Below are positions 2,824 to 25,064 of a DNA stretch of 39,214 nucleotides, in pieces. The stretch covers positions 1 to 39,214 of the forward strand of contig JABXHW010000042.1 in assembly GCA_013373425.1 (NCBI GenBank), read 5' to 3'. The notes beneath the pieces are model-generated. The model made no database searches. It saw only the letters and a program-made list of their open reading frames with translations, and was not told where the DNA came from. The stretch's first letter is position 1. Every line of letters begins with the position of its first letter. Position numbers and translations under genes: made by a program. Origin of the DNA: Flavobacteriia bacterium (GTDB lineage: Bacteria > Bacteroidota > Bacteroidia > Flavobacteriales > Schleiferiaceae).

Positions 2824-3126
2824 TCAGTGAATTTCTGCGGATAAACCTCGGCGCTGTAAGGCATCGCACTTCGGACGCAGGTCGTCGAGGCTGCCACTAA
2901 GTACCTCACACTTACCTTTGTAATGGGTAATCATAGCGCATTGCTGAGCCTGCTCTAATTTGTGGTCACAAACCTCAATCAATGCTTCGATGACATCATC
3001 AAAAGTGTTTACATCGTCATTGTACAACACAATCACATTCTCTAAGTACTCCTCAACAAGCACATCCACCTGAGAGGCTTCTTCCCTCTCCGGCTCCATC
3101 GCATTTATGTGTCTATTCCATTCCAT
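2824..3126 (-). CDS. clpS: ATP-dependent Clp protease adaptor ClpS
   Basis: 100 residues, the usual ClpS size. The core runs from about residue 30: LYNDDVNTFDDVIEAL contains the conserved NDD motif, followed by HYKGKCEVLSG, where family members have H-x-x-G-x-A/C. ClpS binds N-degron substrates and delivers them to the ClpA/ClpC unfoldase in the cytoplasm. The first 25 residues are acidic and variable, as in the family. The start at 3126 overlaps the upstream gene by 14 bp; a second ATG at codon 10 (3099) would avoid the overlap and is a fair alternative. It is the last gene of the minus-strand run beginning at DUF1599. Confidence 0.9.
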   Translation of the reverse strand: MEWNRHINAMEPEREEASQVDVLVEEYLENVIVLYNDDVNTFDDVIEALIEVCDHKLEQAQQCAMITHYKGKCEVLSGSLDDLRPKCDALQRRGLSAEIH

Positions 3127-6100
3127 GTCTGCGCAAGAATAAGCTCACTCGTCCTCTAGAGGTTGGTCCGTACACGTAACGTGCATTGTCATCATCGCGT
3201 TCGATAGTACGGTCGTCTGGCTCCACATCTCTCATCAACACCATCGTTTCGGTATCTGGAGTGAAGAACTGTAGACTGTTGCGAACGTATTGCCAGTAGT
3301 AGTAATCTCTGCTTGGCTCCAAGAACAAGTACGTCTCAAAACGTCTTCTATTCCTCGTAATTTCAAACAAGCCCTCCACCTTTCGGTTCACAGGAATGTC
3401 GCCAATATTGCCAATGCCAATCGGACCTTCACTCAAGAATGAGCGCTTCTCTTCATTCCAAGCTAAACTCATTTGTGAGATGAAAATCTTGTTCTCCAAC
3501 TCTCTTGGGACATCTTCCGTGGCACCAAAATTATTCACTTCTTCAAAATAATCTGCTCGATCATCTTCATCATCAAACATGTAGCTCATGGCAATTCCAT
3601 AGGCTTCCCTATCCAAGTTGATGGTTGATGCACTCGGATCTGCATTGATGTCTGTCGCCACTCGATCCATGATATCCTCCAAGAAGAAGAAATCGAATTC
3701 CAAGGCCACATCCATGGTTAATTCATCGGAATTCAAATCGTGCTCTATCACACCATAGGCCTGAATTTCCGCTCTACCCGGCTCTGGATGCAACGTGATC
3801 TTACCTTTACCAGTCATCACACAAGTAGCGTTATTGAAGGCTACATACGAACCTGGATAGTATTCATTCTCCAATCGTTCTCTAGGCGTGATGATATAGC
3901 TGCTCAACTCATAGTCGTAGTACAACACTCCCGTCGCGGAAATCAATTCCTGATCGAGTCTCGATGCATCCCTGTTCAAGAATCCAGTGTAAATACTCGA
4001 GCTGTCTGGCGCCAAGTAAATACCGGTGTAAACGTTATCGGCTGCGGTACTCGGATTGTCTTCCGGTAAGTCAATGATGATATCGTCCGGATCAATCTTG
4101 CTGTCAATTCTAAACCAATCGGTCTCCAAGTTCTCACAGGTATGCTGAATCAAGATAAAGCCCTTGTAATCCAGCACGCGATCAGGAGCCCTGAGGTCCA
4201 CCTGACCATAGTACCCAAAGAAGGACGACAAGTAGAAGGCATCTTCCTGAGTCACATTTGCGTGCCCGACAGTGATACCGTGATCTGCTTTCACCGATTC
4301 AAAATACAATGGCCAAATCACGCCATCGGCATCGATATATTCATACACGGCATTGCCGCGATAGTCGTTTCTCGCTTTTACCTTCAACGACCCCTCGCTA
4401 AAGGTGTGAAGCTGCGTTTCGCGGTTGGCAATCAAGCGTGCATTCTGCAACCTTCGCATGTCGGCTTCGGCCTCAATGGCCACGTAACCAGAGTCTGGGA
4501 AGATGCGAGCATCAGCCACATCCATATGTGGAACTTCATAAGCTTCGAGCAAGCTCGGCACTAAGTCGAATCGCGCACGTTGAGCATCAAATCGAAGAGA
4601 ATCTTGGGTGCGGTTTACACTGATCATCGGGCTCAATTCGCCGCTCACGTGGTTTACCTCAAGCCACTTTTCCTGTATGTCCCAATCGGCATGGTCCATC
4701 AAACTGATGTACTCATTTGCCTTGAACTCCATGTACTCCTCTCCTCCATTCAAGGTGAACTCCCCTTTCATGCGGTTGAAATCAACCGATCCTCTAGCAT
4801 CGCCCATTCTAAAGGCCCAATCGCTAGATGCATCTGGCCTCACTTTGAAGTTCATGCTCTGCGCCTCAAAACTTCGGTTGTAGAACTGGAAGTCGTCTGA
4901 AACGGTACGAGCATCCAAGAAATCCAATGTGGCATCACCGCGTAAGTCAGAGCTACTGTAGGCAATTGTGCCTTCAGCGGTCATATTCACATCTTCATCA
5001 TACATGCGGAATGGTGTCTGCTGTGAGGTGGCATACATCACATCGTCGTACGGGCGCCAATCCAAAATCACATTGCTGTTTGTCGCCTGTGGTGTGCTTA
5101 CCTGTCCCAACCGGGCTTCGGCGAGATAGCTCTGCGCCACGCCGTAGGTGCTGTCTGGGAAAAATAAGAATCGTTCACCTTGGGCGGTGACCGTCTGGTA
5201 TTCAATGATTCCAGTACCCACCAAGCCTCGGTTCGACAAGGCCAAGTCATTGGTAAACGTACCCACTCCACCATAGGCAGGCAACCCTTGAGGCGGTGTC
5301 GAAGTTTTAAATCCGAGGGAATAATCTTCCTGAACGCGAATGTCCTGCTGCATATCTGGGAAGATTCCAGCGGATACAAACACACCAGAGAATTTCAAAC
5401 CAGCCGTAGATGTATTGTCGAGTGAATCGATTTCGAAGGGCTCTAACTCCACATAGAACTCATCTCTATCGTAAGCACCATTGTGGATGTTCTTTTTATC
5501 GTAGTAAACGAAGCTACCCGTACCCGACTTGAAGATGGGATAGTCATGGTATTGTTCCTTACCTGATTTGTTATTCGGCCGGTCAATCAGCAGCTCCCCG
5601 TTGATATCCTGCAAAGTATTTCGGACCTGAACCAATCTCGGACGGGTACCCGGTAATGTTCTCGCATTGAACTCTGGTACTTTGAATCGCATGGAATCGA
5701 TATCCGGCATGCTGATACGGAACATGTCGTAATCGAAGAAGTTGTTCTGCGCGAAGTAGGTAAATCGACCTGCTACCACCACTCCATCAAAATCAAAATC
5801 AAGTCCTTCGTGAACGGTAATCATTTGTCGAGCAGGGAAGAGTGCCACCTCCTGGCTATCCGAGAGTGCAATACCACGGATACCAGCTATGGTCATGTCA
5901 TAGTTGAGCAGGGACACTTCCGCGTTAGGCCCTGTAGGTGCCGTAGATACAAATCGAATCACATCAAAATCACGTCGACCTCTTGAGTTCAGAATGTAGT
6001 CGAACAACTTATCGGTAAAGGAAACTGTGCGGTTGAATCGGTTGTATTCCACAAAACCTTGAATCGACATGAGGAGCAAGAATCGCTCTGCCGAAGCCGC

Positions 6101-7537
6101 GCTCATGTTCAGCATACTAGCGGCCATCTCAATGGGCATATCGGCGGTATCTCTCGCCAAGGCGACACGACGCAGCTCGAAGAGTGGGTTATCTCCGAAG
6201 CCGCCACTCAATGCATCGAATCTCTCATTTCTGAAGTATTCTGTCGACTCGAAGACCATAGTTTCCTCCGAGCTTGTCTGCATTTTTTGGAAATAGAACT
6301 TCGGATCGTTCATCTGCCAAATGATCTGCTCACCAAAAATATCGAGGTTGTGAAAGGTGTTGTGGAAAGGGGTAGGTCCGATGCCTTCCGTTGGACGAAC
6401 AATGCTTAAGTTGCCCGTTTCAATCTTGTAACTCAAGGCACATTTAGGGTGGTACATGCTATCGGTTTCCCCGAGCATCACTGAAACGTAGGCTTCACTC
6501 GCAGCGATTTGTTGCTGGTTGATCAAGAATAGATCCGAGCGAAACTTGAACAGGGGTTTGCCTTCATATTTAAAGGTGAACTGAGCTGTTTTGGGCAAGT
6601 TCTCTGATGCCACGAAATTCTCACCAATCACCGAGAAACCGCCTCGATAGTCCACGTTTGGAATGATTTCAGGAATGACCAAGGATTGATAAGACGTGAA
6701 GACCGGAAAACGGCGTCCCACTTGATTTTCAGAAATCACCAATCGGTCTTGATAGTCACCCAAAAGCGGACTTGTCAAATAGAGCTTACTGTGCAAGCGC
6801 GCACTGTCTACTTCGTAATACTGTCGGGATAAATCCAGGTCGAACGAAAAGAGCTCAGCATAGAGCGAATCTTCAGAATAGCCTGATTTCTCCCAAGTAA
6901 CGGTTCCTCCATCGCCGTGGAACTTCAAATCGGCCACGTCGTACAAACCGGTTACATTTTTAATCACCATGGAGTCTGTCCCATTCGAACAGAACATATT
7001 CACATCCGTGTAGGCGATTGAAATCTTATCTTCTACAATAATATCAGGAGCCGCATAGCGTGCTTCCCAGTAGAATTGCGATTCGACATTCAATACTTCT
7101 CCAGAAACTGCTTTGAGAAGATTGTGAATTAAATCGACATGTTGCCGTTGATTACCACGACGTGTGAACTCTGCGAAGTAGTTCCAAACGTCCTGACTCA
7201 GTTCAAGCGTTTCGAAATTGTGGAAATAATTGATGAGTCGGATGTAGTCGCTCCACGAGCTGTAATCCTTTAAATTCCGACGGAGTAAATTATCGGTAAC
7301 CGAATATACATTGCCACGAACAGACTCATCTAGATTGGTCCATACCGGCTGGAAGCTCAACATGAGGGCTTCTACACTGTCTCGTTCAACATCATCGATG
7401 TCTCTGAGATACTCATTGAGTTCTTCGTAGAAAGCCTGAGGTTCATGAGTAAAGGATCTCGGTTGTGCGTAGGCAAGTGTTGAAAATGCCAGTATGCACA
7501 GAGTTGCGAGCCCTTTGAGCTTCGTAAATCTGATCAT
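3113..7537 (-). CDS. Very large exported protein of unknown function
   Basis: 1474 residues from the chosen start. I do not recognise a named family. A clean signal peptide begins at this ATG (MIRF-TKLKG, a hydrophobic stretch, then LAYAQ, cut near residue 25). An in-frame ATG nine codons upstream (7564) would overlap prmA by 16 bp and make a longer n-region. After a helical N-terminal part (to about 140), most of the chain is short beta-strand-like segments. A helical patch at about 452-526 (LFELRR...ASMLNMS...GFVEYN...DYDV-like) resembles a winged-helix fold, which would be unusual outside the cytoplasm. Later segments, such as LQDINGELLID near residue 690 and RGDATLDFLDA near 880, recall AsmA or LPS-transport-like beta repeats, but only weakly. 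There is no T9SS tail and no transmembrane helix after the signal. It sits between prmA and clpS with overlaps on both sides, so it is co-transcribed with cytoplasmic housekeeping genes. A periplasmic or outer-membrane location is inference. Confidence 0.85.
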   Translation of the reverse strand: MIRFTKLKGLATLCILAFSTLAYAQPRSFTHEPQAFYEELNEYLRDIDDVERDSVEALMLSFQPVWTNLDESVRGNVYSVTDNLLRRNLKDYSSWSDYIRLINYFHNFETLELSQDVWNYFAEFTRRGNQRQHVDLIHNLLKAVSGEVLNVESQFYWEARYAAPDIIVEDKISIAYTDVNMFCSNGTDSMVIKNVTGLYDVADLKFHGDGGTVTWEKSGYSEDSLYAELFSFDLDLSRQYYEVDSARLHSKLYLTSPLLGDYQDRLVISENQVGRRFPVFTSYQSLVIPEIIPNVDYRGGFSVIGENFVASENLPKTAQFTFKYEGKPLFKFRSDLFLINQQQIAASEAYVSVMLGETDSMYHPKCALSYKIETGNLSIVRPTEGIGPTPFHNTFHNLDIFGEQIIWQMNDPKFYFQKMQTSSEETMVFESTEYFRNERFDALSGGFGDNPLFELRRVALARDTADMPIEMAASMLNMSAASAERFLLLMSIQGFVEYNRFNRTVSFTDKLFDYILNSRGRRDFDVIRFVSTAPTGPNAEVSLLNYDMTIAGIRGIALSDSQEVALFPARQMITVHEGLDFDFDGVVVAGRFTYFAQNNFFDYDMFRISMPDIDSMRFKVPEFNARTLPGTRPRLVQVRNTLQDINGELLIDRPNNKSGKEQYHDYPIFKSGTGSFVYYDKKNIHNGAYDRDEFYVELEPFEIDSLDNTSTAGLKFSGVFVSAGIFPDMQQDIRVQEDYSLGFKTSTPPQGLPAYGGVGTFTNDLALSNRGLVGTGIIEYQTVTAQGERFLFFPDSTYGVAQSYLAEARLGQVSTPQATNSNVILDWRPYDDVMYATSQQTPFRMYDEDVNMTAEGTIAYSSSDLRGDATLDFLDARTVSDDFQFYNRSFEAQSMNFKVRPDASSDWAFRMGDARGSVDFNRMKGEFTLNGGEEYMEFKANEYISLMDHADWDIQEKWLEVNHVSGELSPMISVNRTQDSLRFDAQRARFDLVPSLLEAYEVPHMDVADARIFPDSGYVAIEAEADMRRLQNARLIANRETQLHTFSEGSLKVKARNDYRGNAVYEYIDADGVIWPLYFESVKADHGITVGHANVTQEDAFYLSSFFGYYGQVDLRAPDRVLDYKGFILIQHTCENLETDWFRIDSKIDPDDIIIDLPEDNPSTAADNVYTGIYLAPDSSSIYTGFLNRDASRLDQELISATGVLYYDYELSSYIITPRERLENEYYPGSYVAFNNATCVMTGKGKITLHPEPGRAEIQAYGVIEHDLNSDELTMDVALEFDFFFLEDIMDRVATDINADPSASTINLDREAYGIAMSYMFDDEDDRADYFEEVNNFGATEDVPRELENKIFISQMSLAWNEEKRSFLSEGPIGIGNIGDIPVNRKVEGLFEITRNRRRFETYLFLEPSRDYYYWQYVRNSLQFFTPDTETMVLMRDVEPDDRTIERDDDNARYVYGPTSRGRVSLFLRRHGME

Positions 7538-7548
7538 AGCGCTTGTGT

Positions 7549-8382
7549 TCAGTCTTTGTTCCATATCAACGCAGCCCAGCCGTCTTTCGTCTGCGTTTTC
7601 AATGGAGTCATTCCCAATTGACGTCCCGTTTCCTCGAGTAGCGAGATATCGCTCTCGTAGAAGCCACTCAAAAGTAAAGCCCCTCCAGGATTCAATACGT
7701 CAGTATAGGATTGCATATCTCTTATGAGAATGTTTCTGTTGATATTGGCGATAATCACATCGAAAGTCCGTTCGCCAAGAAGACTTGCATCTCCGTGAAA
7801 AATGGCGATATCTCCTACTCCATTGCGCTCACAATTCTCTTTCGAATTCTCAGCAGCCCACTCTTCAATGTCGATTCCTTCGGTATATCCGCTACCCTTC
7901 ATCTTAGCTAGAATGGCAAGTACTGCCGTTCCACAGCCCATGTCAAGGACAGACTTATCCTGCAGCTCCATGTCTAACAAATAAGAGCACATTAACCAGG
8001 TAGTTTGATGATGTCCTGTTCCAAAACTCATCTTTGGTTCAATCACAATCTCGAAATCAAACTCGCCCTTTTTACTTTCGTGGAATGGAGCGCGGATGTA
8101 GAGTTTCCCGTCGACATCAATAGGATTGAAATTCTTCTCCCATTCTGCATTCCAGTTTTGTTGAGCCACTTCTTCTTCTTCCCACTGAAGCTCGGAAACA
8201 GCCATAGTCATCGGAAAATCTTCGGATGACACCTCTGTATAATCCTCTTTGGGAATGAAGGCTTCAAGTCCGTTCTCTGTATCTACAACCGTCTCCACTG
8301 GAAGTCCATCGAGCTCTGCGTAGAGAATCTCTCTTCCTGGATCCAAAGGTTCAACTTGAAATGTCAGTTTGATGTAGTTCAT
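7549..8382 (-). CDS. prmA: Ribosomal protein L11 methyltransferase PrmA
   Basis: 277 residues. An N-terminal substrate-recognition domain is followed by a class I SAM methyltransferase. Visible motifs are FGTGHHQTTW (about residue 130), the SAM-binding VLDMGCGTAVLAI, an acidic GIDIEEWA strand, and the PrmA signature NINRNIL. The C-terminal LSGFYESDI is also typical. The enzyme N-methylates ribosomal protein L11 in the cytoplasm. It overlaps tpiA by 4 bp and is followed closely by the large exported protein, which indicates one transcript. Confidence 0.95.
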   Translation of the reverse strand: MNYIKLTFQVEPLDPGREILYAELDGLPVETVVDTENGLEAFIPKEDYTEVSSEDFPMTMAVSELQWEEEEVAQQNWNAEWEKNFNPIDVDGKLYIRAPFHESKKGEFDFEIVIEPKMSFGTGHHQTTWLMCSYLLDMELQDKSVLDMGCGTAVLAILAKMKGSGYTEGIDIEEWAAENSKENCERNGVGDIAIFHGDASLLGERTFDVIIANINRNILIRDMQSYTDVLNPGGALLLSGFYESDISLLEETGRQLGMTPLKTQTKDGWAALIWNKD

Positions 8383-9173
8383 ACTGCGCGTAATCCTCCT
8401 TTAGCGGTTTGCATGGCATGAACAATACTCACAAAGTCGCTGGCATCCAAAGATGCACCTCCTACTAAACCTCCGTCAACATCAGGCTTTCCAAAAATCT
8501 CTCTTGCATTCGAAGGCTTCACTGAACCTCCATAAAGGATGCTGATTTCTTCAGCGAGATCGCCATACTTCGAACTAAGATGTGCACGGATGGCTGCATG
8601 CATTTCTTGCGCCTGTTCCGGAGTGGCTGTCTCCCCTGTACCGATAGCCCAAACTGGCTCATACGCTACAATCACAGATTTCATCTGCTCTGGAGAAAGG
8701 TGGAAGAGACCGTTAGTCAATTGCTCGGTAACCACTTTCTCATGATTTCCAGATTGACGTTGTTCTAGCGATTCTCCAACACAGAAAATCGGCATCAAGC
8801 TATGTCGAATGGCTGCATCTACTTTCGAAGCGAGGAGCTCATCCGACTCTTTAAAGTATTCTCTTCTTTCAGAGTGTCCGATAATCACTGCATCAATATT
8901 CAAATCGGCGATCATGCCTGCTGAAATCTCACCGGTGTATGCCCCAGAATCCTCATGGTGACAATTCTGTGCAGCGACAGAAATATGCCCTTCTTCCCAA
9001 ACGTGATCAATCACATCGATAAGGTGAGTGAACGGCGGTGCGATAATCACTCTCGTATCCCCCATCTGTGTAGGATTCAACTTCTCCAAAATGTCTACAA
9101 CTAAGGAAACCCCATCTGAAGGAACGGTATTCATCTTCCAGTTTCCGGCTACAATTTTCGCTCTCATATTCAA
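8379..9173 (-). CDS. tpiA: Triosephosphate isomerase
   Basis: 264 residues including a two-residue extension; the family start is often at the Met at codon 3 (9167; MRAKIVAGNWKMN). It interconverts dihydroxyacetone phosphate and glyceraldehyde 3-phosphate in glycolysis and gluconeogenesis. Catalytic features are the Lys in GNWKMN, the His in IGHSERRE and the Glu in AYEPVWAIGTG; the phosphate-binding YGGSVKP is near the end. It overlaps prmA by 4 bp. The gap to the upstream permease gene carries a dispersed repeat, and no consensus promoter was seen there. Confidence 0.97.
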   Translation of the reverse strand: MNMRAKIVAGNWKMNTVPSDGVSLVVDILEKLNPTQMGDTRVIIAPPFTHLIDVIDHVWEEGHISVAAQNCHHEDSGAYTGEISAGMIADLNIDAVIIGHSERREYFKESDELLASKVDAAIRHSLMPIFCVGESLEQRQSGNHEKVVTEQLTNGLFHLSPEQMKSVIVAYEPVWAIGTGETATPEQAQEMHAAIRAHLSSKYGDLAEEISILYGGSVKPSNAREIFGKPDVDGGLVGGASLDASDFVSIVHAMQTAKGGLRAV

Positions 9174-9357: not shown

Positions 9358-10440
9358 CTATCCCCTCCTCACCCTCGGATCCAACCACCCGTAAACAAAG
9401 TCCACCAAAATATTGATGATTACGAACAGTGCAGAAATGGTAAGAACAGCTCCCATGACCACAGGTAAATCCTTTTGATTGAGGGCATCTACGATTTGTT
9501 TACCTAGGCCGTTCCATCCAAAGATGTACTCCACAAAGACCGCTCCCGCTAACATACTAGCGAACCATCCAGAAACTGCGGTTACGACCGGGTTTAAGCT
9601 GTTTCGCAAAACATGCCGACGAACCACTTGAATGGTGTTCAACCCTTTGGCTCTTGCCGTGCGGATATAATCTTGATTGAGGGTTTCTAGCACACTGCTC
9701 CGAGTCAGCTGAATGATTACACCCAAGGGACGAATCCCGAGCGTGAGTGCGGGAAGAATAAGGTTGTCCAAAGCGAGATATCGACCTGTACCGTAATCGT
9801 CCACTTCATACAAACTACCGGTCATACTCAAGCCGGTCCAACTCGACCAGATAAAACCGAATAGCCAAGCAATTAATATAGCGGAGAAGAATGATGGCAA
9901 AGACATCCCCAAGGTTCCAACGACCGTCCAGAATCGGTCGAACCATCCATCTTTGTACAAGGCAGAGATGACTCCTATGAGTATTCCGAAAAGGACTGCA
10001 ATCAAGATACTTGTGACTGCCAATACAGCTGTATTCGGAAGCGTTTCACCAATCACATCTCGAACGCCTCTACCCTGCTGTTGCATAGATTCGCGCAGAT
10101 AGGGCCACTTCAGCGCGAGGTGCCCCTCACCAATACCCACAAACTCAAAACCTGAATAATTGTGATTCTCAAAGTGCGTGTAGCTCTGTGCTTCGTCGCT
10201 ATGCCAACTGAGTGGCGACAAATCGTTCAGGTAATAGAAATACTGCGTAGGTAGCGATTGATCCAAGCCGTACTTTGCACGGATGGCCGCCAATACTTCC
10301 TCGTCTTCTCGCTGATCCATCATCATTCGTGCAGGATCGCCCGATAGAACATTAAATAGAATGAAGATCAGAGTAGCTACTCCAAACAGGACGCCAATGG
10401 CTTGTCCGATTTTACGAAGTAAGCCACTCAATATGCTCAT
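9358..10440 (-). CDS. DppB/OppB-type ABC transporter permease (orphan)
   Basis: 360 residues, slightly longer than typical DppB. The N-terminal helix with FNVLSGDPARMM and GLDQSLPTQYFYYL is characteristic of the peptide/nickel permease family. The EAA-loop signature is visible as DYIRTARAKGLN...RHVLRNSLNPVVT. About six membrane segments, with a large outside loop containing YTHFENHNYSGFEFVG before residue 110. In other systems it pairs with a DppC-type permease, ATPases and a binding protein; none is encoded in this window, so the substrate is unknown. It overlaps the DoxX-like gene by 4 bp, and the same neighbours recur in Bacteroidota (recalled, not searched). Confidence 0.88.
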   Translation of the reverse strand: MSILSGLLRKIGQAIGVLFGVATLIFILFNVLSGDPARMMMDQREDEEVLAAIRAKYGLDQSLPTQYFYYLNDLSPLSWHSDEAQSYTHFENHNYSGFEFVGIGEGHLALKWPYLRESMQQQGRGVRDVIGETLPNTAVLAVTSILIAVLFGILIGVISALYKDGWFDRFWTVVGTLGMSLPSFFSAILIAWLFGFIWSSWTGLSMTGSLYEVDDYGTGRYLALDNLILPALTLGIRPLGVIIQLTRSSVLETLNQDYIRTARAKGLNTIQVVRRHVLRNSLNPVVTAVSGWFASMLAGAVFVEYIFGWNGLGKQIVDALNQKDLPVVMGAVLTISALFVIINILVDFVYGWLDPRVRRG

Positions 10441-11576
10441 TGAAACAGACCTTGCAATTCTTCAACTGAAGGTGCATCGTTCCAATGCCATTTCCCTACA
10501 ATTACTCCGTTTTTAAGCGCCATTACACCCGGGTTACTTCGGATTACCGTCTTAATTGCGGTACCATCTCCCGTTGTGAAATCGATAGGAATTTGTGCTT
10601 CGTGCTTCGCCGCTTCCACCACTTCATACGAAGAGCTTGTCCAGCCGATAGTTTGAATGCCCGCTTCATCCAAGGTCCAAGCCCATTCGCCAATGGCCTT
10701 CATTCCTTCTTCGCTGGCTTTCTCCATCTCGTAAGAGAGCACCATAACAATTGCATCCTGACTCAACAACCACTGAGTGATATCGCCTCTATCCGTATTC
10801 AACGAGAAATCGTGAATTGGCGGCTCATATCCATCGCTGATCTTTCTGCTTTCAGTGAGGTCGTTCTGAATTTCCCATTCCGGCTTCTCCCACCACTTGT
10901 CGTCGATGTACTGCTTATCAGTAATCTCAACCATTTCACCTGTACTCGCATTCTTCATGGTGTACATGATTTCATATTGAGGTCCTTCCTTACCCAACTC
11001 ATCGGCGGATTTCATGCCTTCGGCGATATCAGTTCCGACCTTGTAAGCTCGGAAATCTACCACTGGCAGGTGATTCAGTACATGATGGGTATAGAATCCA
11101 GACGCAATCAGAAGCACAACTGTGATTCCAATAGCGGTCTTGCTTGCTACGAGAGGATTGATAAATCGCTTACCCGCAAACAGGATGACGATTAGAACGG
11201 TCAAGATCACGTCTTTGACAAAGGACTGGAACGGCGTTAATGGGATAGCATCCCCGAAGCAACCACAATCGGTTACAACATTGAACCACCACGACCAGAA
11301 GGTGAGGAATGTAAAGAACACGATCATCAAAAGAAGAGCCCGGACCGTAAGTTTTCGCCACAATCCGAGGAGAAGAGTAATCCCCAATGCGATTTCAATA
11401 ACGCAAATGAAAATTGCGAAAAACAAGGCCGCTGGAAGGAGGAACGACATGTTCAGTTCCACGAAATATTCTTCCAACTTGAATCCAAATCCCATTGGAT
11501 CATTCAACTTTACCCATCCCGAGAAGATGAATAGTACGCCCACAAGAATTCTGCTAATCTGAACCAAGTACTTCAT
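10437..11576 (-). CDS. DoxX/MauE-like membrane protein with thioredoxin-like C-terminal region (BT_3928 type)
   Basis: 379 residues. Residues 1-165 contain four or five membrane helices with ISRILVGVLFIFSGWVKLNDP at the start and DCGCFGDAIPLTP (Cys104, Cys106) after the third, both typical of the DoxX/MauE family. The remaining ~210 residues are soluble; VMVLSYEMEKASEEG and NPGVMALKNGVIVGKWHWND near the end look like a thioredoxin fold without a CxxC motif. MauE-type proteins take part in disulfide or quinone-linked membrane redox, but the role of the Bacteroidota form is not established. It starts 5 bp after the DUF1599 gene and overlaps the permease. Confidence 0.8.
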   Translation of the reverse strand: MKYLVQISRILVGVLFIFSGWVKLNDPMGFGFKLEEYFVELNMSFLLPAALFFAIFICVIEIALGITLLLGLWRKLTVRALLLMIVFFTFLTFWSWWFNVVTDCGCFGDAIPLTPFQSFVKDVILTVLIVILFAGKRFINPLVASKTAIGITVVLLIASGFYTHHVLNHLPVVDFRAYKVGTDIAEGMKSADELGKEGPQYEIMYTMKNASTGEMVEITDKQYIDDKWWEKPEWEIQNDLTESRKISDGYEPPIHDFSLNTDRGDITQWLLSQDAIVMVLSYEMEKASEEGMKAIGEWAWTLDEAGIQTIGWTSSSYEVVEAAKHEAQIPIDFTTGDGTAIKTVIRSNPGVMALKNGVIVGKWHWNDAPSVEELQGLFQ

Positions 11577-11581
11577 CGGTC

Positions 11582-12130
11582 TTATTTCTTTTTGAGTTCT
11601 TCCATTTGAATCAGAGCGAAAACGGAATAGTTAATCATATCCATATAATTCGCGTCTACACCTTCACTAACGAGCGTTTGCCCGGCATTGTCTTCAATCT
11701 GCTTCACTCTTAGGAGCTTTTGCAAAATCAAATCTGTAAACGACGGAACGCGCATGTCTCGCCAAGCCTCACCATAATCGTGATTCTTGTCCAACATCAA
11801 TTGCCTTGTAGCCTGAACGTGCTTGTCGTAATACCCCATCGCTTCATCTGGCGACATATCAATCTGGTCTGCCACGCCGAGTTCGAGTTGCACAAGCGCA
11901 ATGATGGAGTAGTTCAAGATTCCGATAAACTCACCGCGTAAATCATCCGCAACCTTCTGTGTGCCTTTGTCTTCAATACTGCGAAGACGTTGGGCTTTAA
12001 TGAAAATCTGATCGGTCAAGGATGGAAGTCGTAGAATTCGCCAAGCGGCACCGTAGTCCTTCAGCTTTTTCTCAAAAAGGGTTCTGCATTCTTGAATGAC
12101 TTGGTCGAATTGCGCGGGTGTATCGCTCAT
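11582..12130 (-). CDS. DUF1599 protein with two tandem domains
   Basis: 182 residues made of two related halves. The first has KDYGAAWRILRLPSLTDQI...QRLRSIED...NYSIIALVQLE, the second HDYGEAWRDMRVPSFTDLI...LRVKQIED...NYSVFALIQME. This duplicated architecture is the DUF1599 family, common in Bacteroidota beside folP. The all-alpha pattern with conserved acidic residues resembles MazG-like nucleotide pyrophosphohydrolase folds, but that is inference and no substrate is assigned. It is first in the minus-strand run and divergent from folP. No consensus -7 element was found for it. Confidence 0.85.
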   Translation of the reverse strand: MSDTPAQFDQVIQECRTLFEKKLKDYGAAWRILRLPSLTDQIFIKAQRLRSIEDKGTQKVADDLRGEFIGILNYSIIALVQLELGVADQIDMSPDEAMGYYDKHVQATRQLMLDKNHDYGEAWRDMRVPSFTDLILQKLLRVKQIEDNAGQTLVSEGVDANYMDMINYSVFALIQMEELKKK

Positions 12131-12142: not shown

Positions 12143-12178
12143 ATGCTCGGCACGAAACCGTTAGTAAGAGGTGTAAAA

Positions 12179-13051
12179 ATGATGAATTGGCGAGCGAAAG
12201 ATACCAAATTCACTAGGAAATCGACCATCAGAATTGGAGGTCGTTTAATGGACCTGAGTACGCCTAAAATCATGGGGATTGTGAACATCACTCCCGACTC
12301 ATTTTACGACGGAGGAAGCAGCGAGACCATAGATTCAGTCTTGGCCAAAGTGCAGCGATACGTGGATGAAGGTTCAGATATTCTCGACCTCGGTGCGCAA
12401 AGCACGCGTCCTAAAGCGGAGCAAATCGGACCGATGGACGAATGGAAGAGATTGGAAGGTCCACTTCGTGAAATCGTGAATTCTTTTCCGGATCGGACCA
12501 TATCCATCGACACGTACCACAGTTCAGTAGCAGAACGCGCTTTAGAAAACGGTGCGCACATCATCAACGACATCAGCGGTGGAACTTTAGACGACAACAT
12601 GTTTGCGACGGTCGGCAAATGGAAGGTGCCTTACATTTTGATGCACATTCAGGGCGCACCGGAGAATATGCAAGACAACCCCCACTATAATCACGTGGTA
12701 GAGGATGTCGCTACCGACCTTGCATCCAAGTGCAAATCCCTTATTCAAGCCGGTGTTGATGATATAATAATCGATCCAGGATTTGGCTTTGGAAAGACCA
12801 CCGAACACAACTATGTACTGCTTCGCGATCTTGATTACTTAATTGAAATTGGTCACCCCCTACTCATCGGCATCAGCAGAAAGTCGATGATATGGAAAAC
12901 CCTCCAAACGTCGGCTAGCGAGGCGCTGAACGGAACCTCTGCACTACACATGCACGCCCTTCAGCAGGGTGCTTCCATCCTACGCGTTCACGATGTGAAA
13001 GAAGCGGTGGAAGTACGTACCTTGTGGCAACAACTTCAAGCAAAAGCCTGA
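12179..13051 (+). CDS. folP: Dihydropteroate synthase
   Basis: 290 residues from the chosen ATG (a second ATG follows directly at 12182). The enzyme condenses 6-hydroxymethyl-dihydropterin diphosphate with p-aminobenzoate in folate synthesis and is the sulfonamide target. Signatures are IMGIVNITPDSFYDGG, DEGSDILDLGAQSTRP, SIDTYHS, NDISGG, ILMHIQGAPENMQ, DIIIDPGFGFGKT and IGISRKSM. The frame extends upstream to 12092, but that would run inside the divergent DUF1599 gene and upstream of the promoter. cdaA starts 2 bp after the stop, so the two form an operon. Confidence 0.95.
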   Translation: MMNWRAKDTKFTRKSTIRIGGRLMDLSTPKIMGIVNITPDSFYDGGSSETIDSVLAKVQRYVDEGSDILDLGAQSTRPKAEQIGPMDEWKRLEGPLREIVNSFPDRTISIDTYHSSVAERALENGAHIINDISGGTLDDNMFATVGKWKVPYILMHIQGAPENMQDNPHYNHVVEDVATDLASKCKSLIQAGVDDIIIDPGFGFGKTTEHNYVLLRDLDYLIEIGHPLLIGISRKSMIWKTLQTSASEALNGTSALHMHALQQGASILRVHDVKEAVEVRTLWQQLQAKA

Positions 13052-13052
13052 A

Positions 13053-13844
13053 ATGATCGAATACATCCAAGCTCTTTTTGATCACGCAGGAGTCATCGAC
13101 ATCCTTGAGATTATCATCCTCGGACTCGTACTTTTCAGTTTATATCGACTTGTGCGCGGGACCCCTGCCATGTACATCTTTGGAGGCATCGTGGCTATTT
13201 ATGTAGCCTGGAAATTATTCGAAGCTCTGGGAATGCAGGTCCTTCCGGAAATCATGGATAAGTTCCTGGGAGTTGGTTTCATCGCCATCATCATTGTCTT
13301 CCAACAAGAAATCAGGAAGTTCCTTTTGGTGATTGGTTCCAGCAGTTTCGGGAAGCGAAGAACCTTCCTGCGTCAGTTCCTCTTTCTTCGTCAGGAAGAG
13401 GCTGAGCTAGATGTCGACCCCATCGTGCATGCCGTTGGACTTCTCAGCGAGCACAGAACGGGAGCATTAATCGCGATTGAACGCAACATGCCTCTGGGGT
13501 ATTACGCTCAAACGGGTGTTACGCTGAATGCGCGTATCGGCTCTCGACTCATTCAAAGTATATTCTTCAAAGACGCACCACTCCACGATGGTGCCGCTAT
13601 CATTTCTCAAGATAAAGTCGTCGCTGCTTCTGCCATCCTACCGGTTTCAGAGAGCAGCAACATCCCAGGTCGCTATGGCCTACGTCACCGTGCTGCCGTC
13701 GGACTCTCAGAAAAGACTGATGCCATTTGCATTGTAGCCTCAGAAGAGACGGGAAAAGTCACTATTGTTGTTGAAGGTGAGATTACGATGATCAAGGATA
13801 AGGATGAGTTGCGTAGGAGGCTGACTGAACTTCTGAAATACTAA
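13053..13844 (+). CDS. cdaA: Diadenylate cyclase CdaA
   Basis: 263 residues with the CdaA layout: three membrane helices in the first ~90 residues, then a DAC catalytic domain. The catalytic DGA (179-181, in APLHDGAAI) and RHR (211-213, in GLRHRAAVG) motifs are intact. It makes the second messenger c-di-AMP from two ATP, controlling potassium and osmotic balance and envelope stress in many bacteria. Pairing with folP is common in Bacteroidota. Only 17 bp separate its stop from the convergent comEC stop, and no terminator is visible there. Confidence 0.95.
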   Translation: MIEYIQALFDHAGVIDILEIIILGLVLFSLYRLVRGTPAMYIFGGIVAIYVAWKLFEALGMQVLPEIMDKFLGVGFIAIIIVFQQEIRKFLLVIGSSSFGKRRTFLRQFLFLRQEEAELDVDPIVHAVGLLSEHRTGALIAIERNMPLGYYAQTGVTLNARIGSRLIQSIFFKDAPLHDGAAIISQDKVVAASAILPVSESSNIPGRYGLRHRAAVGLSEKTDAICIVASEETGKVTIVVEGEITMIKDKDELRRRLTELLKY

Positions 13845-22769: not shown

Positions 22770-25064
22770 CTATCGAAGAATCTGAATTTTTTCAGTCTGT
22801 TCTCCTATTCGAATTAAATAGAACCCTGTATTCAATGCAGTGAGATTGAGCTCTTCACCTTCTAGTCTGCCCGTCACAAGCTCCCTTCCCATCAGGTCGA
22901 GAACAGACCATGAAGCACCTTCATCTGCGCCTTCAATCGTGATGAATCCTGTGGTCGGATTAGGATAGAGCTTCCAAGAAGAAACTTCAGCTTCTTCAAG
23001 TCCAACGCCCGGATAGGTACGAATGACAATCGGCATAAGCTGCGATGCACCTGGAATGCTTGTGCATCTTCTCATTCTCACATCTCCATAAACTGAATTG
23101 TTGATCACAGTATCGCCGGCGGGAATGATCTGAGTGCCAGAAGTCACCTCGAAAACAAATCGAAGTGTATCGAACGCTTGCCAGAGCAAGTTGGCACCTG
23201 ATCCGTTGTGAGGTAAATCGAATTCTACGGCCATTCCGTTCAAATCTTGTCCAACGCTAGTGAACTCTAAGTTACTACCGCGGTAAACGCGCATCTCCAT
23301 TGTTGAGTTAAGATTAATACCAGGAATAAGCACAGATTGTGGCCAGACGGTTAACGGACCGTCCTTCTCAACCAAATAGGAAATGGTATCTCCCGTTACA
23401 AGTTGAGCCGTATCGTTGACGAAAGAGCCTCTGTTGAAGATCGAGAGAAGCGATTGTGGCATATCCACGCCTACGATGTTACTTGATCTCTGACATGATG
23501 TAGCTAAATAAGTAGAGCGCCCTTGATACAGTCCCCATGGAGCCCCGGTAAGGATTCCATTCGACTGATTCGGTACTCTCACCCCAAAGTGGTACCATTC
23601 GAAGTTGTTCCAATCATTTCCGTTTTGTACAGTAATATCTCCAGTCGTAGTAGAAATCGCCGGTCGAGGGATGGCGATGACTTCTATGAAGACTCGGTGA
23701 GTGACATAACCATCCACATGATATTCCAGTAGGGTATCATTCAGAAGAACTGTGGTGCAACCCGTTGTTGGTCCGCATACTACTAAGTTGTTCGGTGACC
23801 AATTGGGTACAGTGCCTGCCACAAGTGGAACGGGTAACGTTACAACTTCACCCATGCATCCACGGATTGTATCTGTGGGGATAACTGGATCGTTCGTGGT
23901 TACATCAATCACAATCATCTTCCTTGCTGGAGGACAAGCATCATTTTCCAGATAAACTGTTGTTCGATTATGCGATGGCGAAAGACTATCAGGTGCCCAA
24001 ACGTATTCAAAATCAATTTGAGGTAAGAAGGTTGGATTGTTGAATCCTTGCTTCGGCTGCACGGTAGGAACTGAAGGACCGGATGCGGATGAGGCACTGG
24101 TAAAGCCTATTCCTACACCGCCCGTTGTGGCTGCCCGTAAATCGATTCTAAGGGTGTCGCCATGAAGCACGTGAGCATTGATATACACTGCTGACGTGTC
24201 CACAGTCATACTCGAAGAACTTCCACCCAGAACCTGAACATCTACAGTTGTACTCCCCGGCCAAGATGTGAAGGCGATAAATCCTCTGTCCCATCTCACC
24301 ACACTCGACAATTGACCGTTGTAATGAGATCGAGCTTCTTGTGTAATGAAATAGCGCGTACCAGAAGTTAGGCCAGAAGATTTCACATTCCCAACATTTG
24401 CATCGTAATTGGTCATTGGAACAGGTGCGCTACCTGAAAGTGGGGCAACATATGGAATAGGACCTGAAAGACTTCTGGAACTCACCAAACTAGAAGATGT
24501 TGAATCTGATTGAGGATGATAGAATGGCATCAACATTTCGACATTAGTGCCGGCCGCTCTATAATCGCCTCCAATAAAAGTGGTTTGAACACTAGAACGT
24601 GGATATCCCGCTGCATGCATTTCAACACCAACTATTCCAGGAAGATGTGTGGTACCGACATCCAAGTTGCTCGTAGGAGCGTAGCGCTCACCCGTCAGAT
24701 CAAACTCAAACACGTGTGGGGTTCCTGCAGATGGCTTAGCAATGGTTTGAGGGTTGGTTCTCAATACCACTAGGAAAGTTCGGGAGAAAGAACTCCCACT
24801 CACAAAGCAAGGCCCCGCTCCGGCACAAGTGCTGTCGAGCGCGATTATGGTATCCACGAAAAGGGTAGTCCCGTCTACAAGGGAGAGATTCCCCCATGAA
24901 ACGGCACTATCTTGACAATTCACTGTGAGTTGAACCTGAAATACGAATTGATTATTGCCAACATATTCATACGTCAATGAGGCGCCAGTGATACTCCTGT
25001 GGGATGCAAAAGTAAAGGTGGACAATACCATCAAGGCGCTAAGTAAAGCGAGTCTAGCTTTCAT
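22770..25064 (-). CDS. Large T9SS-secreted surface protein
   Basis: 764 residues with a signal peptide (MKARLALLSALMVLSTFTFA). The mature start SHRSITGASLTYEYVGNN, followed by VNCQDS, resembles the 'SHIxGGEITYxCLGNNQY' N-terminal module common in Bacteroidota adhesin-like and gliding-associated secreted proteins. The middle is beta-rich with Ser/Thr-rich linkers and a few Cys pairs. The tail is a type A T9SS sorting domain (WKLYPNPTTGFITIEG, VLDLMGREL, NTGFYLIRIG). Its ligand is unknown. A TAGCTTTG -7 element lies 22 bases before the start. Confidence 0.85.
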   Translation of the reverse strand: MKARLALLSALMVLSTFTFASHRSITGASLTYEYVGNNQFVFQVQLTVNCQDSAVSWGNLSLVDGTTLFVDTIIALDSTCAGAGPCFVSGSSFSRTFLVVLRTNPQTIAKPSAGTPHVFEFDLTGERYAPTSNLDVGTTHLPGIVGVEMHAAGYPRSSVQTTFIGGDYRAAGTNVEMLMPFYHPQSDSTSSSLVSSRSLSGPIPYVAPLSGSAPVPMTNYDANVGNVKSSGLTSGTRYFITQEARSHYNGQLSSVVRWDRGFIAFTSWPGSTTVDVQVLGGSSSSMTVDTSAVYINAHVLHGDTLRIDLRAATTGGVGIGFTSASSASGPSVPTVQPKQGFNNPTFLPQIDFEYVWAPDSLSPSHNRTTVYLENDACPPARKMIVIDVTTNDPVIPTDTIRGCMGEVVTLPVPLVAGTVPNWSPNNLVVCGPTTGCTTVLLNDTLLEYHVDGYVTHRVFIEVIAIPRPAISTTTGDITVQNGNDWNNFEWYHFGVRVPNQSNGILTGAPWGLYQGRSTYLATSCQRSSNIVGVDMPQSLLSIFNRGSFVNDTAQLVTGDTISYLVEKDGPLTVWPQSVLIPGINLNSTMEMRVYRGSNLEFTSVGQDLNGMAVEFDLPHNGSGANLLWQAFDTLRFVFEVTSGTQIIPAGDTVINNSVYGDVRMRRCTSIPGASQLMPIVIRTYPGVGLEEAEVSSWKLYPNPTTGFITIEGADEGASWSVLDLMGRELVTGRLEGEELNLTALNTGFYLIRIGEQTEKIQILR

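Follow-up and report, generated by a model that had tools for sequence, protein, structure and literature searches.

What a very large exported protein is doing in a gene run otherwise made up largely of housekeeping functions, between prmA and clpS, is the question raised by contig JABXHW010000042.1 of a Flavobacteriia bacterium (assembly GCA_013373425.1; Bacteroidia, Flavobacteriales, Schleiferiaceae in the GTDB lineage), whose whole stretch of 39,214 nucleotides was analysed and is called the window here. The protein, 1474 amino acids (aa) long and referred to below as the giant, belongs to a real, widespread and overlooked family, and appears to be a component of the cell envelope that has escaped notice. 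Its observed features are a signal peptide, a predicted solenoid, weak repeats, a winged helix, two kept cysteines, a class-wide spread and a place after prmA, often before plsY. On this basis the giant is tentatively read, at somewhat less than even confidence, as belonging to an uncharacterised family of non-enzymatic, modular scaffold or assembly factors for envelope biogenesis, large and soluble proteins of the periplasm (or associated with the outer membrane).

Export and spread of the giant family

An earlier description of the window, made from its letters alone (the sequence-only reading), had proposed an exported protein between prmA and clpS that overlaps clpS, and this was confirmed by a single intact open reading frame (ORF), its signal peptide and neighbours matching PF06325 and PF02617. 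Its placement at 3113-7537 also stood, with the correction that the gene lies on the minus strand, on which that reading had been silent. The longest reading of the frame, 3113-7564, yields 1483 aa (P0001), and all residue numbers given here refer to P0001 rather than to the 1474-aa product. The start at 7537 is preferred over that at 7564 because it opens the signal peptide MIRFTKLKGLATLCILAFSTLAYA, followed directly by Q, and sits just past the prmA stop; in the relatives, a script choosing the Met ahead of the most hydrophobic stretch arrived at starts matching this position. On the plus strand, the frame of 3113-7537 holds many stops. A chance ORF or a local oddity is ruled out, since an uninterrupted, conserved version of the frame occurs in hundreds of genomes. 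In one genome, a frame of 1942 codons lies antisense to the giant (L060:6333-12158, minus strand), which may stem from base composition.

The export claimed for the protein is borne out by a predicted signal peptide in the window copy and by similar N-termini in the relatives, where L020 is cut by a contig end and L027 has no clear Met. Q34, the first residue after the expected cleavage, is invariant in the family alignment (73 of 73 rows). This alignment comprises 76 rows (74 distinct), of which 73 or 74 have a residue in the columns cited here; of the alignments built from 75 relatives, A7 holds 71, with two repeats omitted and L045 and L066 lost, and A6 holds a chosen 64. The highest hydropathy window scores 1.08 outside the signal peptide compared to 1.36 inside it, and no later membrane-spanning stretch was found by hydropathy in the window copy. 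Instead of an N-terminal inner-membrane anchor as in AsmA and TamB, the chain is predicted to begin with a signal peptide bearing an AQ cleavage site.

Regarding its spread, a profile of 27 rows matched 324 of the 395 genomes sampled from the class, the best-scoring part of these matches being nearly all near full length, and at least one carrier was counted from the result tables in 69 of the 79 families drawn. Among near genomes, a single-sequence search found the giant in 27 of 31, the source genome included with its one match, and a relative from Phaeocystidibacter luteus, placed by NCBI in the Flavobacteriales, is 58% identical to the window protein. The ten families in which no carrier was found are f3 (13 genomes), f6 (2), f37 (1), f44 (6), f47 (8), f52 (14), f68 (3) and f78, f83 and f89 (1 each), together accounting for 50 of the 71 genomes without a match; of the remaining 21, some are incomplete drafts, and, as few candidates per genome were scored, distant relatives could escape the profile. 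In a draw from the phylum, 6 of 148 genomes matched, all 6 within the same class, the kinship of the unlisted misses not being given, so that the number of genomes outside the class cannot be stated. The protein is thus conserved in the class and not the lineage-specific oddity that the sequence-only reading had named as one possible undoing of its claim; neither poor conservation nor a strong match to a characterised family, the other, was found. The importance that it ascribed to the protein goes further than these counts, as 71 of 395 genomes and ten of 79 families show no match.

The copies are mostly about 1430-1600 aa long, with L027 (1363) and L028 (1017) shorter and some open frames reaching 1763. 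This bears on the idea of a protein with a structural or adhesive role at the cell surface, placed in the housekeeping run by accident, to which only a slight chance is given: the size, the beta-rich repeats and the acidity of the window copy (132 K+R against 230 D+E) would suit it, but the net charge of the family runs from -95 to +26, with a median of -15. Adhesins are commonly variable in length and fast-diverging, whereas most giants keep to a narrow range of lengths and hold many near-invariant residues. In addition, no Por_Secre_tail, the C-terminal sorting domain of the type IX secretion system (T9SS), was found in P0001 or in the 27 and 33 family members scanned; the scan that covered P0001 did detect it in another window protein.

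Domain anatomy and the search for known relatives

On the predicted fold together with sequence similarity, the winged-helix domain is real. The sequence-only reading had described a chain with no named domain and a winged-helix-like patch at about 452-526; the whole chain does remain unnamed, and the patch narrows to a true winged helix at about 460-526. An AlphaFold2 model of residues 435-554 from two sequences has a predicted local distance difference test score (pLDDT) of 75-86 over 475-524, the first helix being lower. With this model, Foldseek placed MarR/IclR winged helices on top (probability 0.92-1.00 in the 50 rows listed; best E 0.0036, none below 0.001), and VIA-align gave a Z of 8.9. 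A 65-row profile of the patch recovered 3cta (0.0016) and transcription factor E (0.0057) from the PDB, in a list of 14 rows of which 4 were an unrelated histone chaperone; a two-row alignment gave chance matches only, at E 0.72 and worse. Scanned singly, the 65 patch sequences matched HTH_IclR in 10 members, TFIIE_alpha in 8 and Fe_dep_repress in 8 (best 1.2e-5), along with single-member matches to unrelated families. The window's own patch matched HTH_IclR at 0.007, below the cut-off, and among full-length relatives the helix-turn-helix models were each matched by 1 to 3 of 33, in a scan that gave no match positions.

The same fold is found in MarR/IclR regulators and archaeal RbkR (PDB 7kk0, 1mkm, 3cta); unlike in these, the winged helix of the giant is one module within an exported 1474-aa protein. 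Given the predicted signal peptide, cytoplasmic DNA binding by this domain is unlikely, and, since a DNA target is implausible beyond the cytoplasm, it probably serves in protein docking.

Ahead of the winged helix, the predicted N-terminal solenoid has a pLDDT of 59-86 except at its very start, and the remainder of the chain is beta-rich by inspection. The long beta-rich repeats reported by the sequence-only reading were recovered as weak internal repeats, found in both directions (Table 1). Cys1143 and Cys1248 are likely to form a disulfide, judging from their conservation. Polar motifs are also kept, with N665 K666 S667, D713 S714 and D988 S989 present in 70 to 73 of 74 rows, which would suit a periplasmic enzyme held in a conserved gene order without a shared pathway. 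Such an enzyme is given a low probability: no enzyme family was matched significantly in the family library scans, and DS pairs recur in the window copy (13 in all), which is as compatible with turns as with active sites.

No Pfam, NCBIfam, PHROG or PDB family covers the giant, which agrees with its description as undescribed as far as the libraries searched extend. An ordinary named family was rejected, the stray matches lying below cut-off or in few members (for the window protein, DUF4487 at 0.23 and Borr_BB0208 at 0.064). A scan of viral contigs with one pattern was uninformative, and a literature search over titles and the starts of abstracts, with most subscription journals uncovered, turned up no publication on the gene.

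A faint resemblance to AsmA or lipopolysaccharide-transport proteins had also been suggested, and here the sequence-only reading found no support in sequence. Against the whole chain, the TamB profile (PF04357) scored 27.8 with its own decoys at 22.0 and 23.7, and the AsmA profile (PF05170) 23.0 with decoys at 29.7 and 30.3, both at a probability below 1%, while OstA_2 (PF13100) scored 23.4 with decoys at 17.5 and 20.0 and a probability of 0.3% (slices at most 0.6%). TamB and OstA each score a little higher than their respective decoys but lower than the highest decoy in the set (30.3, for AsmA). Among nine slices of the chain, none exceeded the 2.7% of residues 985-1180 with TamB (score 26.5, against 22.7 for the decoy), whereas one reversed decoy reached 8.6% and the positive control, AsmA with TamB, was linked at 87.7%. 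These profiles were drawn from the same class, those of TamB and AsmA being cut by the fetched flanks, so that parts went uncompared. Kinship with TamB, AsmA or OstA is therefore unsupported by sequence, there being no significant profile match. The same comparison also fails on OstA itself (0.1% with TamB, 0.3% with AsmA), so a shared fold may escape it.

The sole trace of such a resemblance is structural. VIA-align matched model residues 126-233 (protein residues 160-267) to two E. coli LptA entries at Z 7.8, with a root-mean-square deviation of 2.8-2.9 over 88 residues, in a low-confidence model and at a Z, below 8, that can reflect a common arrangement; its lists sampled only the winged-helix part well, and other folds may exist elsewhere in the chain. 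Together with the internal repeats and a best TamB score a little over its own decoys, this match raises the possibility of a lipid bridge or shuttle, in which stacked jellyroll or beta-groove units would move phospholipid or lipopolysaccharide across the periplasm, LptA- or AsmA/TamB-like in action and not a demonstrable relative. It is considered doubtful. The profile probabilities speak against it, as do the limits of the match and the low confidence over much of that region, and no membrane anchor is present. AsmA and TamB are likewise very large envelope proteins, TamB being rich in beta structure with open frames mostly of about 1430-1790 codons, but TamB is a separate gene, and its presence in 48 of the 50 genomes tested counts against the lipid idea; the two without it, G025 and G028, both bear the giant, a point in favour. 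OstA_2 likewise has its own gene in 13 of 14 genomes, as does AsmA in 13 of 14 (12 above cut-off), and the giant has roughly two to three times the length of the OstA_2 frames (499-810 codons).

The gene run and its neighbours

In the window, the minus-strand run reads DUF1599, DoxX/MauE, ABC permease, tpiA, prmA, giant and clpS, with the 3' end of the giant overlapping the start of clpS (Table 1). The "translation/proteolysis operon" of the sequence-only reading is not purely that, in view of the permease and the DoxX/MauE protein upstream.

Table 1. Features of the giant and of its gene run in the window (residue numbers of P0001)
Feature	Positions	Strand	Remarks
Giant exported protein	3113-7537	-	1474 aa from likely start 7537
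Signal peptide (predicted)	7466-7537	-	Residues 10-33, cleavage expected between AYA and Q34; from sequence
N-terminal helical solenoid (predicted)	7106-7441	-	Residues about 42-153, six helices; AlphaFold2, two-sequence alignment
Winged-helix domain	5987-6187	-	Residues about 460-526; three helices, beta-hairpin wing, helix
Most conserved core	5255-5914	-	Residues about 551-770; NKSG, YPIF, PFxIDSLDN, SAGIFPD and DYSLGF stretches
Internal repeat copy	5792-5932	-	Residues 545-591; resembles 994-1037, hhalign 45-62%
Internal repeat copy	4454-4585	-	Residues 994-1037
Internal repeat copy	5114-5311	-	Residues 752-817; resembles 843-910, hhalign 95%
Internal repeat copy	4835-5038	-	Residues 843-910
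Cys1143 codon	4136-4138	-	Conserved in 73/73 rows
Cys1248 codon	3821-3823	-	Conserved in 73/73 rows
clpS	2824-3126	-	Directly downstream of the giant; PF02617, 1.6e-16
prmA	7549-8382	-	Directly upstream of the giant; PF06325, 3.2e-44
tpiA	8379-9173	-	Upstream, same gene run
ABC-type permease (BPD_transp_1)	9358-10440	-	Upstream, same gene run
DoxX/MauE membrane protein	10437-11576	-	Upstream, same gene run
DUF1599 protein	11582-12130	-	First gene of the run

Elsewhere in the window, two proteins carry type IX secretion sorting tails (341-2431 and 22770-25064, both minus strand), and a folP-like pterin-binding gene is directly followed by a CdaA-type diadenylate cyclase gene (12155-13844, plus strand).

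Among 27 close-relative loci, which exclude L002 as a repeat of L003, prmA lies within a flank of about 1.5 kb of the giant in 24, one of the other three ending at a contig edge, and clpS in 9. A wider set of 42 loci consists of the best-scoring matches, which favours typical members, several of them from the same family. There, prmA is directly upstream in 27 and PlsY directly downstream in at least 16, a lower bound because the gene caller overlooked the PlsY adjoining the giant of G038, while clpS is directly downstream in 3 and anywhere in the region in 10. The fixed neighbours proposed for the gene are thus upheld for prmA, whereas clpS is seldom adjacent and PlsY is the commoner partner downstream. 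Of the 26 loci without an adjacent PlsY, 14 still have prmA adjacent; PlsY is adjacent without prmA in L065, L078 and L104. Measured from longest-ORF starts, the spacing goes from an overlap to 89 nucleotides at prmA and from -14 to 71 at PlsY. A PorE-like TPR/PD40/SPOR protein occurs in the region of 11 loci and an M48 peptidase in 6, the fullest order being tpiA-prmA-giant-plsY-PorE-like-clpS-M48 in L100. PlsY is an enzyme of phospholipid synthesis, and its rank as the commonest direct downstream neighbour favours the lipid shuttle.

A second giant protein, some 1480 to 2300 aa long, is encoded downstream of the first or of plsY in 11 of the 42 loci, as in L078:601-6972 (-), L062:13099-18567 (+), L075:635-7555 (-) and L073:12333-16778 (+); single copies match PD40 (L062, L078), TPR (L078, L073) and SPOR (L073). 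Against the PorE/CHU_0125 models it scored 78.5 to 89.6 bits, with cut-offs of 600 and 620.

The giant-less loci show what the site looks like when empty. Of 18 such loci with a clear prmA, 14 have clpS directly after it, with 7 to 115 nucleotides between the match ends: 13 are of family f3 and one is G021 of f4, for which a single-sequence search and the empty site are the grounds for calling the giant absent. In the other four (two f6, one f44, one f52), clpS lies outside the flank. Judging by gene order, a lineage that lacks the giant at precisely this site, prmA and clpS being left side by side, fits a loss, given that the same site is occupied in many families. In giant-less G064, G049 and G027, no clear prmA was found (weak matches or none), and the gene and its neighbour may be missing together.

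Moreover, giant sequences were obtained from 59 loci, with PrmA also available for 44 of them; over these 44, the two distance matrices are correlated with a Mantel r of 0.352, reached in 0 of 999 permutations, a modest correlation consistent with shared descent.

Associations across genomes and the possible role

An accessory part of the T9SS was considered, as SprA is found in 320 of the 324 carriers, the four exceptions being drafts 56 to 95% complete, and as 8 of the 12 SprA-less genomes are also giant-less (Fisher p 2e-4); the PorE-like protein near some giants points the same way. However, SprA is present in 63 of the 71 non-carriers, including all 15 genomes of the giant-less families f3 and f6, so that the giant does not accompany SprA wherever it occurs, as a core part would, and a dependence on the T9SS was rejected as a general rule. 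Most of the coinciding SprA absences fall in giant-less families. The bit scores of the downstream neighbour stay far under the PorE/CHU_0125 cut-offs, and the TPR, PD40 and OmpA domains of PorE/CHU_0125 were not found in the giant family members scanned. A T9SS role is accordingly held to be quite improbable.

Meanwhile, PlsY was found in 22 of 38 carriers compared to 4 of 22 non-carriers (p 0.003) in a set chosen by hand, which again leans towards lipid handling. PF02660 had no match in the three genomes of the window genus (G000-G002), which speaks against lipid handling, nor in the 13 of f3 or the two of f6; PlsY is present in G022, G025, G028 and G030 of the same order. As the window genus has the giant without PlsY, and four giant-less genomes have PlsY, a partnership of the two was rejected as a general rule. 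Both the SprA and the PlsY tests are weak because neither takes relatedness into account and the independent losses behind them are few.

In the scaffold or assembly-factor reading, the giant would stay in the periplasm after export by its signal peptide. The solenoid and the winged helix would act as protein-docking modules rather than in DNA binding, and the beta body would hold or carry another envelope component, which could be a lipid, an outer-membrane protein or a secretion part. The two kept cysteines may be bridged as a disulfide.

Several observations weigh against this reading. The function is only inferred, no homologue with a known role having been found. Most of the chain has no reliable model (mean pLDDT 36.9 with AlphaFold2 from two sequences, and about 20 to 30 in most parts of the beta body), and the solenoid was matched to no known fold, the winged helix having filled the structure-search lists. 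As the 71 class genomes without a match include all 13 sampled of f3 and all 14 of f52, the envelope of the class can do without the giant. In addition, its neighbours are mostly housekeeping genes, and the adjacency may mean only a stable gene order.

A bolder version, regarded as unlikely, would make the giant a new kind of machine serving the envelope in this class. It would be a huge soluble stack of beta units in the periplasm, a winged helix embedded in it, and would handle lipids or parts of the outer membrane alongside TamB and Lpt, to neither of which sequence kinship was detected; one flavobacterial lineage lacks it precisely at its locus.

For the biology of the family, a signal-peptide protein of about 1470 residues that occurs in most genomes of the class sampled, often beside prmA, and is unnamed in the curated libraries searched amounts to a large blind spot in envelope biology. 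A winged helix within an exported protein is unusual in itself, and the flavobacterial lineage in which prmA and clpS adjoin with precisely the giant lacking offers a natural comparison.

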